Shown here: positions 36,439 to 41,165 of the stretch, piece after piece
Layout of the letters: every line of letters starts with the position of its first letter
Numbering within the stretch: the stretch's first letter is position 1
Assembly (NCBI GenBank): GCA_021201535.1
Contig: JAJQEU010000120.1
Coordinates: forward strand, 1 to 64,000
Source: Clostridiales bacterium
GTDB taxonomy: Bacteria; Bacillota; Clostridia; Lachnospirales; Lachnospiraceae
Reading direction: 5' to 3'
Length of the DNA: 64,000 nt
Program-made: the position numbers and the translations under genes
The notes under the pieces: generated by a model
The model's input: only the letters and a program-made list of their open reading frames with translations
What the model was told of the DNA's origin: nothing
Databases searched by the model: none

Positions 36439-37122
36439 TCACATAGACGCCAGATACGCGTCCACATCCGCCAGAAACTGTTCCCACGCGTCCGGATTCT
36501 CCACATAATAAACCGGACACAGCTTCCCGGTAATATCATAGTGGCGCATCACATCATCCGACGTCAGCCCGAACTTCGCGCAGAGCCAGGCCGTCAGATG
36601 GACGACTGAATCATAGGTCGCCTGATTGAAGGAGCCGTCCTCATTCTCATAACAGCACTCGATCGACAGCGTATCACTGTTTCTTTCATTCGAAGCATAG
36701 GCGATCTCCGCCGTCGGAATACACTGTACAATCTCCCCCTCCAGACCCACGATAAAGTGCGCGCTCGCCTTCGTCGCGCGAGAATCCTTCAATCCCTCAA
36801 AATAATCGCGATTGGCCTCGGCCGAGGTACCCGGATTCGCTGTGTAATGAATTACGATCCCATTGACCTCCTCCAGCGCGATCCCCGGTCGGGAATATTC
36901 GTTGATCGTCAGCAGATCCACCTCATAATCCGGTGTATGCGCCTCAATGCTTTCCTCCGATATCTCCGTCACCGTCCGGACGGACGCCGACGTCCTGTGC
37001 CTCGTCACCGCCACGATCAGAAGCAAAATCATGATCAGGCAGAGAACCCCGACCAGCACATGCTTCATGTCATATAAAATCTGTCCGGCTCCCGCTCCCC
37101 TTTTTCTTTTGTGATAAGACAT
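36439..37122 (-). CDS. Membrane-anchored N-acetylmuramoyl-L-alanine amidase (Amidase_2/PGRP)
   Basis: N-terminal TM; GIVIHYTANPGTSAEANRDYFEG, ASAHFIVGLEGEIVQCIPTAEIAYA. Confidence 0.92.
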   Translation of the reverse strand: MSYHKRKRGAGAGQILYDMKHVLVGVLCLIMILLLIVAVTRHRTSASVRTVTEISEESIEAHTPDYEVDLLTINEYSRPGIALEEVNGIVIHYTANPGTSAEANRDYFEGLKDSRATKASAHFIVGLEGEIVQCIPTAEIAYASNERNSDTLSIECCYENEDGSFNQATYDSVVHLTAWLCAKFGLTSDDVMRHYDITGKLCPVYYVENPDAWEQFLADVDAYLASM

Positions 37123-37123
37123 A

Positions 37124-37155
37124 ATTACCTCCCGCGCGTCTCATCCATCCGGTAA
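37124..37155. repeat. 32-bp direct repeat, left copy
   Basis: ATTACCTCCCGCGCGTCTCATCCATCCGGTAA, identical to 37807..37838. Confidence 0.98.
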
Positions 37156-37209
37156 CTTAATGTAAACTAATGATGGTTCATATCCGGTAACTTAATGTAA
37201 ACTAATGAT
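37147..37209. repeat. Tandem 28-bp direct repeat (two copies, 35-bp period)
   Basis: ATCCGGTAACTTAATGTAAACTAATGAT at 37147 and 37182. Confidence 0.97.
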
Positions 37210-37259
37210 TGACAACACATCATTATGAGCGTATAATCTGATAAAAGGAACGGGTTTTC

Positions 37260-37802
37260 CTACTGAGTAAGGTCTATGGACCGGAAAAGCTTGCTCGTTT
37301 CTTTTTTTATGTTCATAATATCATATAAATACAATTTTCCATCTTTATCATGCCGTATGAGCATCGCCGCATGAAACACATTGTACCTCTCAACGTCTCC
37401 CGATTCTCCATAAACAGGCAAGGCAATTCGCGATTCATAACGATACCAGCCAAATCGGGCATTTGCGCTATGTTTATCTTTCCGATTTTCTTCATATCGT
37501 TTTCCTGATGCAATTTTTATGATTTCCGGCAAACCCTGTACAGCATTTGCTTTTGCTTTCGCATTTGCACCCTTAAGAATACGAGTGTAATTCGAATGAG
37601 CATATTCGTCAGGAAGGTCAGCACCTACATATACGATTTCATTTGTTGCAGCAATTGCATAAAATTCTCCCACATACTGTTTCAGATAATTTTCCACATC
37701 GTTCCAGTTCACATTACGTTTGCCTTTAAAAATTATATCATTTATAAGGACAATCTGATTTCCATCCGTATCTTCTATGATATCGACATTTGTATTCATC
37801 AA
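37260..37802 (-). CDS. Phage polyvalent-protein-like protein, possibly a PBECR/BECR-fold nuclease-related domain
   Basis: ARFGWYRYESRIALPVYGESGDVERYNVFHAAMLIRHDKDGKLYLYDIMNIKKETS resembles domains at the ends of large phage/ICE polyvalent proteins; AT-rich; SD GGGAGGT supplied by the 32-bp repeat. Confidence 0.5.
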   Translation of the reverse strand: MMNTNVDIIEDTDGNQIVLINDIIFKGKRNVNWNDVENYLKQYVGEFYAIAATNEIVYVGADLPDEYAHSNYTRILKGANAKAKANAVQGLPEIIKIASGKRYEENRKDKHSANARFGWYRYESRIALPVYGESGDVERYNVFHAAMLIRHDKDGKLYLYDIMNIKKETSKLFRSIDLTQ

Positions 37803-37806
37803 AAAG

Positions 37807-37838
37807 ATTACCTCCCGCGCGTCTCATCCATCCGGTAA
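37807..37838. repeat. 32-bp direct repeat, right copy (3' end of cbiC)
   Basis: Identical to 37124..37155. Confidence 0.98.
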
Positions 37839-38458
37839 AGAATCGCGTTACAGATCGCGGCCGCCACATTGCTGCCGCCCTTCCTGCCGCAGGCGACAAT
37901 GTAAGGCACATCCGTTTTTAGTATCAGTTCTTTGGCATACTCGACATTCACAAATCCGACCGGCACGCCGATGACCAGCTTCGGGCAGATCCTGCCCTCC
38001 TGTATCAGCTCATACAGGCGGATCAGCGCCGTCGGCGCGTTCCCGACCGCAAAAATCAGCGGCACATTCAGTCCCGCAGCCTTGTCCATGCAGGCAGCGG
38101 AGCGGGTCGTTTGATTTTTCTTCGCAGACTCCGCCACATCCTCATCTGAAATAAAATTATAGACCCTGCTGCCATATTTTTCCAGTGTATTTTTATTAAT
38201 TCCGGACATGACCATGCGGGTGTCTGTCACAATGCATGCGCCGTCCCGGATCGCCTGCATGGCATGACCGACCGCGTCCGGAGAAAACGTCAACGTTTCC
38301 GCGTACTCAAAATCGGCCGTCGTGTGTATGACCCGTTTGATCACCGGCTCCAGTTCCGGGTTAAGACGGATACCGCGCCGGACAAGCTCCTCTGAGATGA
38401 TTTCAAAACTCCTTTTTTCTATTTCCATGGGAAGTACATGTTCATATTTTATTTTCAT
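37808..38458 (-). CDS. cbiC: Precorrin-8X / cobalt-precorrin-8 methylmutase
   Basis: RVIHTTADFEYAETLTFSPDAVG, IVTDTRMVMSGINK, GVPVGFVNVEYAKELI. Confidence 0.95.
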   Translation of the reverse strand: MKIKYEHVLPMEIEKRSFEIISEELVRRGIRLNPELEPVIKRVIHTTADFEYAETLTFSPDAVGHAMQAIRDGACIVTDTRMVMSGINKNTLEKYGSRVYNFISDEDVAESAKKNQTTRSAACMDKAAGLNVPLIFAVGNAPTALIRLYELIQEGRICPKLVIGVPVGFVNVEYAKELILKTDVPYIVACGRKGGSNVAAAICNAILYRMDETRGR

Positions 38459-39891: not shown

Positions 39892-40998
39892 TTATAACAA
39901 TAGTTTTAAAATTTTTTGTTCATTTGATCTTGTAAAATCGCTCAGTCGCCAGGAACGAATTCTCTTCTTCACAATCACCGGCACGAGAAAACCATTATAT
40001 GACAGCTTCGAACAGCGATTAATAATCGTCTTGTTTGTCACCCCGATCATTTTACTAACCGCAATCGGAGTAAATTCATACAAATGTTTTTGAATCAGAA
40101 ACTTCAAAAGTTCTTTCTCTTTTGTATTTAAATAAGAAACGCTCTCTGCCAGGCCATTCTTTTCAGATGACCTGGAAATCTCACATACTTTACCGGAATA
40201 TAATTCCACCATTTTTAAAAAATAAAGTATCCAGATTTCCGGGTTGGGAGGGTTATCTCTTCCTGAATAATATAAAGCCGGAAGCCCCATCTGCAGCGAT
40301 GCATAATATTCTTCCGGATCGTATGCAAAATACTCCTCAAGAGAACCGATACCATGAAATCCATATCCGTAACAATCAAGAAGATATCCGGATAATAATC
40401 TTGCCGTTCTCCCGTTCCCGTCTTCAAACGGATGAATGGTCACAAGCTGATAATGAACGACTGCCGCAATAATCAACGGATGGTCATCGGTATTGTTTAC
40501 ATACTCAACCAGTTCATCTAATAATTCCGGAATATCTGTATATTCCGGAGGAATATACTCCGGAAGTCCGCTTGCAGAGTCATAAACGGCAAATACAACA
40601 CCGGGAGGCATCGCCTGTCTCAATCCAATCTTTTCTTTTGAAGCACCCATTTCCACCAACGCCTGAACTTCGAGAACCAACTCTTTCGAAAACTTTACTT
40701 TTTGGTTTTTCTTATCTTCCAACAGATTAAGCGCCAGAAAATAATTACGAACTTCCTGTTCCGGCTTCAGAAAATGCCTGTGCGGATCGCTTTCTATTGC
40801 ATCGCTTACCTGTTGCTCCGTGAGCGGATTTCCTTCTATCTTATTAGATGCATAAGAACTTTTCTTTTTTGAATTTTTTCTCAATCTGTTTCTTGTAACA
40901 GAAGGTAATTGCAACGTGTTCAGGAAAAAACGATTTTCATCAATTGCCGATATTTTAATCAGCATCTCATTTGTAAGAATAACTTTAATCAATATCAT
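39892..40998 (-). CDS. Fic domain protein (putative AMPylase), probable class II self-inhibited, C-terminal wHTH-like region
   Basis: HPFEDGNGRTARLL core motif; SNKIEG matches the (S/T)xxxE(G/N) inhibitory motif upstream; SD GGGAGG before ATG at 40998. Confidence 0.93.
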   Translation of the reverse strand: MILIKVILTNEMLIKISAIDENRFFLNTLQLPSVTRNRLRKNSKKKSSYASNKIEGNPLTEQQVSDAIESDPHRHFLKPEQEVRNYFLALNLLEDKKNQKVKFSKELVLEVQALVEMGASKEKIGLRQAMPPGVVFAVYDSASGLPEYIPPEYTDIPELLDELVEYVNNTDDHPLIIAAVVHYQLVTIHPFEDGNGRTARLLSGYLLDCYGYGFHGIGSLEEYFAYDPEEYYASLQMGLPALYYSGRDNPPNPEIWILYFLKMVELYSGKVCEISRSSEKNGLAESVSYLNTKEKELLKFLIQKHLYEFTPIAVSKMIGVTNKTIINRCSKLSYNGFLVPVIVKKRIRSWRLSDFTRSNEQKILKLLL

Positions 40999-41165
40999 CG
41001 CCTCCCGACTACTGATAAATTCGCTGAAGTTTTCTTTATTATTATAATTGAAAAGCAGATGGAATTCCATTATTATTTCACTATTTTTACACTATTTTTC
41101 TCATCTGCACATCCTTGCACAATAAATATTAAGTAATTTCCTTACGCGCCCCTGTGCATAAAAAA

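Follow-up and report, generated by a model that had tools for sequence, protein, structure and literature searches.

A gene for a candidate toxin, overlapped at its 3′ end by a predicted small structured RNA on the opposite strand, is present in a 64,000-nt stretch of Lachnospiraceae DNA (contig JAJQEU010000120.1, positions 1 to 64,000; hereafter the window). The locus is likely to be a pair of the toxin-antitoxin kind, in which the antidote is an RNA encoded antisense to the gene, and solitary copies of the RNA are likely to give immunity. The features of the locus are listed in Table 1.

Table 1. Features of the locus, in coordinates of the window.
Feature	Position	Strand	Remark
Candidate toxin gene, 179 aa, free-standing LPD3-like domain	37260..37799, stop included	minus	ATG at 37799
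Predicted sigma-70 promoter of the antisense RNA	37209..37237	plus	TTGACA 37209-37214, 17-nt spacer, TATAAT 37232-37237
Predicted antisense small RNA, about 66 nt	37243..37308	plus	start inferred from the promoter
Covariance model match to the RNA	37239-37308	plus	75.6 bits
Stem P1	37244-37254 with 37294-37304	plus	with U-tract 37302-37308, intrinsic terminator
Stem P2	37263-37264 with 37288-37289	plus	compensatory changes across the family
Stem P3	37271-37273 with 37280-37282	plus	compensatory changes across the family
32-bp direct repeat, downstream copy	37124..37155		includes the ribosome-binding site of the amidase gene
32-bp direct repeat, upstream copy	37807..37838		3′ end of the cbiC-like gene; ribosome-binding site for the inserted gene
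Two 28-bp tandem copies	37147-37174 and 37182-37209		at the insert's outer end, immediately preceding the RNA promoter

The gene and the relatives of its protein

The ORF at 37260-37802 on the minus strand is a genuine gene. Hundreds of Lachnospiraceae genomes encode free-standing members of its protein family (~175 aa); the protein is under purifying selection, with a dN of about 0.09-0.25 versus a dS >1 (NG86); and AlphaFold2 yields a confident model (mean pLDDT 89.7, pTM 0.85), in which a helix is combined with a four-stranded sheet. The relatives, the dN/dS values and the model together exclude a chance ORF. An in-frame TTG at 37802 lies one codon before the ATG, and a start there would give 180 aa. 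The letters of the C-terminal stretch quoted in the initial annotation are correct, but that stretch does not end the protein, as KLFRSIDLTQ follows it before the stop. Conserved residues of the protein include K83, H110, Y119 and R124. Some relatives carry an N-terminal fusion to an XRE-type helix-turn-helix segment (L009, L013, L015, L026, L033, L034 and L036).

The product had been described in that annotation as a stand-alone domain resembling those of polyvalent proteins, and several searches now bear this out. In a BFVD fold search, phage polyvalent proteins were matched at E 3.5e-9 to 1e-5 and TMq 0.5-0.71, one of them being annotated as LPD3. Weak matches to Pfam LPD3 (PF18798) were obtained for 8 of the 38 family members (best E 7e-5), short of the curated Pfam cut-off; the window protein itself had no LPD3 match, and a PF18798 search of the window's genome and genus matched nothing. 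By hhalign, the family matches, at a probability of 96.8, the tail of an ORF of polyvalent type and 1516 aa that comes from a different bacterial family within the class; the genome holding this ORF has no match to the RNA. These results support the protein as a distant relative of the LPD3-like domain in giant phage or conjugative polyvalent proteins. The likeness lies in the fold and in remote sequence similarity; LPD3 (PF18798) sits in large polyvalent proteins, whereas the present family is free-standing and, in this analysis, seen only in Lachnospiraceae. LPD3 has been described without a function, beside PBECR domains in Helicobacter polyvalent proteins (PMC5512222).

The accompanying guess at a BECR/PBECR fold found no support in the sequence and PDB fold searches. 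No PBECR family was matched in Pfam by the 38 members, and the best 50 PDB fold matches included no BECR structure, with barnase, RelE, EndoU and colicin E5/D all absent from them. The helix plus four-stranded topology of the model is compatible with a BECR fold. No match to a ToxN/CptN/TenpN endoribonuclease was found in Pfam or among the best 50 PDB fold matches. The best PDB matches were mostly of the NTF2-like/ketosteroid isomerase sort, but at a TMq of about 0.26, and this similarity was rejected; the matches of the window protein to CooT, Alph_Pro_TM, PD-Lambda-3 and PHROG entries, at E about 0.01-0.1 or worse, were likewise set aside.

The predicted antisense RNA

When the 3′ flanks of the relatives were compared, a promoter was found that points into the gene's 3′ end. 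Its −35 element, TTGAC, is nearly invariant over 141 loci, of which 129 have a spacer of 17, and the −10 element reads TAnnnT; at least 10 of 12 promoter matches are seen in 121 of these loci versus 30 of 705 shuffles. A few bases past the −10 element comes AAGAAAYGGGUUUU, then a two-part hairpin and then the terminator CUCGUUUCUUUUUUU; the complement of this terminator stem and U-tract encodes the residues IKKET of the protein. Judging by this conserved sequence and structure, the RNA is predicted to be transcribed from a promoter of its own and to end in an intrinsic terminator of its own. The initial annotation had seen no antitoxin nearby; this appears to be contradicted by the conserved RNA gene that overlaps the 3′ end of the ORF on the opposite strand.

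With 87 sequences as input, RNAalifold recovered the same structure unaided. Paired cells amount to 94.3% in these sequences versus 51-64% in slid controls, a comparison that ignores their relatedness. All five pairs of P2 and P3 have changed on both sides (e.g. CG in 66, UA in 20 and 1 broken). Read on the antisense strand, there are 200 GU cells versus 22 AC cells, and hence the antisense strand is the structured one. An RNA on the sense strand is ruled out by the same asymmetry, and that strand scores no more than 28 bits with the covariance model. The E-values of this model are rough, and it was built partly from loci that were later counted; the solitary loci, including the array L234 (see below), lie outside its sequences. 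The unpaired UUUU and GUA of the RNA are conserved both inside and outside coding sequence. Some of the RNA's conservation is coding conservation, since part of the RNA overlaps codons. A search of Rfam with ten loci, at E up to 1, gave no match at the RNA.

Insertion, distribution and solitary copies

The gene stands alone, with a cbiC-like gene (37808-38458) on one side, an amidase gene (36439-37122) on the other and one copy of a perfect 32-bp direct repeat at either end, in agreement with its earlier description as a free single-gene unit. Since the repeat holds a ribosome-binding site, the inserted gene and the amidase gene each retain one. The same cbiC-amidase site is empty in L158, with a single copy of the repeat sequence, and holds an intact gene in L160; in L159, most of the coding sequence is gone, and the 3′ end, promoter and hairpin are kept. 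Perfect flanking direct repeats were found at about nine loci (the window, L138, L042, L049, L012, L134, L029, L122 and L113). They vary by locus in sequence and length, with exact matches of 17-53 bases, and are best read as marks left when the unit was inserted. At the repeat-flanked loci, neither a recombinase nor a fixed core behind the insertion was identified; site-specific recombination at a fixed core is ruled out, as the repeats are unlike in sequence and length between loci. The 28-bp tandem sequence and the 32-bp repeat have ATCCGGTAA in common. Further along the window, a Fic-domain-like ORF (39892-41070; HPFEDGNGRTAR motif, by eye) has a cobalamin gene and a NifU-like gene as its neighbours. 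Near one copy elsewhere, at 393-477 of L024, there is a group II intron end (Rfam RF00029).

The flanking repeats and the empty site in relatives would suit another reading, in which the hairpin is no RNA gene but serves a small non-autonomous mobile element as a recombination or terminal signal, and the direct repeats record its insertion. However, the repeats are found outside the hairpin and vary from locus to locus, while the conserved promoter spacing, the strand-specific GU pairs and the U-tract are those of an RNA and not of a DNA hairpin; this reading is therefore very improbable.

The distribution of gene and RNA was determined in 200 Lachnospiraceae genomes, one per species. Relatives of the gene are present in 47 and the RNA, by covariance model, in 60. 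Each of the 45 full-length genes carries the RNA. Conversely, the 87 strong RNAs comprise 44 with a full gene, 17 with a 3′ gene fragment and 26 without a gene, the last spread over 22 genomes; in 13 genomes, the RNA occurs and the gene has left no trace. Among gene remnants, 18 keep the 3′ end, all of them with the RNA, versus 3 that do not. A separate search by protein similarity gave 87 gene-bearing loci, in which the covariance model matches the other strand at the gene's 3′ end. When 341 genomes of the class were surveyed, RNA and free-standing gene were seen only in Lachnospiraceae, and a GTDB-wide scan placed gene relatives at 472 sites, the best 80 of which are mostly Lachnospiraceae by title. 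Upstream of the gene, a small ORF with a coiled coil and a resolvase-type helix-turn-helix occurs in 16-17 of 79 loci (e.g. L081 and L003 4634-4990).

The solitary RNAs have a median identity of 0.88 to the nearest gene-bearing RNA, so that conservation of the RNA is much the same with and without the gene. The sequence 60-120 nt beyond them has an identity of 0.49, compared with 0.48 for shuffled sequence and 0.72 for the gene-bearing control. As far as sequence comparison can tell, the solitary loci have kept the promoter and hairpin, and the former coding sequence alongside is decayed to background. At 4922-5116 of L234, three RNA subtypes stand in tandem behind one promoter-like region, with a U-tract after the last only; hence the inner hairpins are not there as terminators. 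The units best match RNAs of different gene-bearing or solitary lineages, the third at 94-96%. A hairpin that is a terminator and nothing else is ruled out by the promoter, the solitary copies and this array. A second RNA in the genome of the window gene itself is accompanied by no more than a 3′ fragment of the gene (L025, G000:C8:20395-20613). At some loci, a second copy of the RNA, often of another subtype, lies just past the first (L079 4492-4667, L091 4483-4851, L093 4483-4648 and L108 4483-5081).

These copies also bear on whether the RNA is a cis-acting regulator only, that is, an antisense transcript and terminator limiting a non-toxic phage-derived gene, with the solitary copies as decaying leftovers. 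An antisense RNA with a hairpin that possibly terminates both transcripts would be enough for such a role, and LPD domains have been proposed to facilitate invasion (PMC5512222). However, the solitary RNAs keep promoter and hairpin beside coding sequence at background, the hairpins of the three-RNA array, without internal U-tracts, are not there as terminators, and remnants with the 3′ end exceed the others 18 to 3. We consider a purely cis-acting role unlikely.

Alternatively, the solitary RNAs could silence the LPD3-like gene of an incoming element as a form of superinfection immunity, the protein serving mobile elements against host or competitor and not as an addiction toxin. In keeping with this, gene copies occur in a few viral contigs, serine recombinases adjoin the gene in 9 of 79 loci, the array L234 adjoins XRE and ImmA-like genes, and the polyvalent relatives have been proposed to act early in infection (PMC5512222). 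No gene relative was matched in a tblastn search of plasmids. Many gene copies, however, are alone in ordinary chromosomal surroundings, such as cobalamin genes (in the window) or miaB, which is a better fit to self-maintenance, and we regard this alternative as more doubtful still than a cis-only regulator.

Proposed mechanism and comparison with known systems

A partner that never occurs without the other, when the other often occurs without it, is the usual signature of a toxin and its antitoxin. The asymmetry with which gene and RNA are retained thus suggests that the protein is a toxin. This asymmetry is tempered, since no full-length gene can lack the RNA's 3′ half; past the stop codon, however, are the promoter and a large part of the 5′ half, which could have been lost. 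Conservation of the RNA by itself would also fit a regulator of a non-toxic gene.

In the favoured reading of a toxin-antitoxin-like pair, the free-standing LPD3-like protein is probably toxic to the cell, and its antidote would be the small structured RNA encoded antisense within and just past the 3′ end of the gene. The RNA probably works in trans as well as in cis, since it is kept as solitary copies, and once as a three-member array, after the protein gene has been lost. Most likely, solitary RNAs would shield the host or a mobile element from newly arriving copies of the gene, though they could have been recruited to other targets. The idea of chromosomal antitoxins that counter incoming toxins (anti-addiction) is accepted (PMC12548467).

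As to how the RNA may neutralise the toxin, direct binding to the protein, as in type III systems, is slightly favoured because the unpaired UUUU and GUA are conserved whether coding or not; pairing with the 3′ end of the toxin mRNA, as in type I systems, is suggested by the overlap of RNA and gene and is nearly as likely. In the most far-reaching form of the proposal, a structured RNA antidote binds and inhibits an LPD3-like toxin and has been spread and stacked as solitary, multi-specific immunity RNAs across Lachnospiraceae, which would constitute a new class of RNA-protein toxin-antitoxin system. This we put forward tentatively, as a possibility that falls somewhat short of an even chance.

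Among type I systems, TxpA/RatA and BsrG/SR4 of B. subtilis have a convergent overlapping antisense RNA. The present locus shares with type I systems such as C. difficile CD2517.1-RCd8 a convergent RNA overlapping the protein gene, an occurrence in Firmicutes and links to prophages (PMC6563280); here, the antisense gene overlapping the candidate toxin gene is that of a predicted RNA with a conserved promoter. Type I toxins are usually, if not universally, hydrophobic and <60 aa (PMC6563280), whereas the protein here has 179 aa and a globular model (pLDDT 89.7). Also unlike type I, the RNA is one conserved structured family with many subtypes, conserved unpaired bases and solitary or arrayed copies. 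With type III systems (ToxIN, CptIN and TenpIN), whose proteins are similar in size to the one described here, the locus has in common a structured RNA as proposed antidote and the occurrence of arrays. In type III, the RNA forms a repeat array that precedes the toxin in one operon, with a terminator between the two, one promoter and pseudoknots (PMC5086642); the RNA here, in contrast, is antisense, convergent at the 3′ end of the gene, usually single-copy and equipped with its own promoter. The locus thus resembles type I in layout and type III in its structured RNA, and a defining or usual feature of each type is missing.

In the open literature, most subscription journals aside, we found no account of this RNA or of a free-standing LPD3 toxin, and the RNA family is new to Rfam. 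For a polyvalent-protein domain without an assigned function, the locus suggests a role, namely toxicity under the control of an RNA. The system is common in a dominant gut family, with the RNA in 60 and the gene in 47 of the 200 sampled genomes. If the proposal is true, antidote RNAs, solitary or arrayed, would amount to a simple form of immunity that needs no protein and is invisible to gene annotation.
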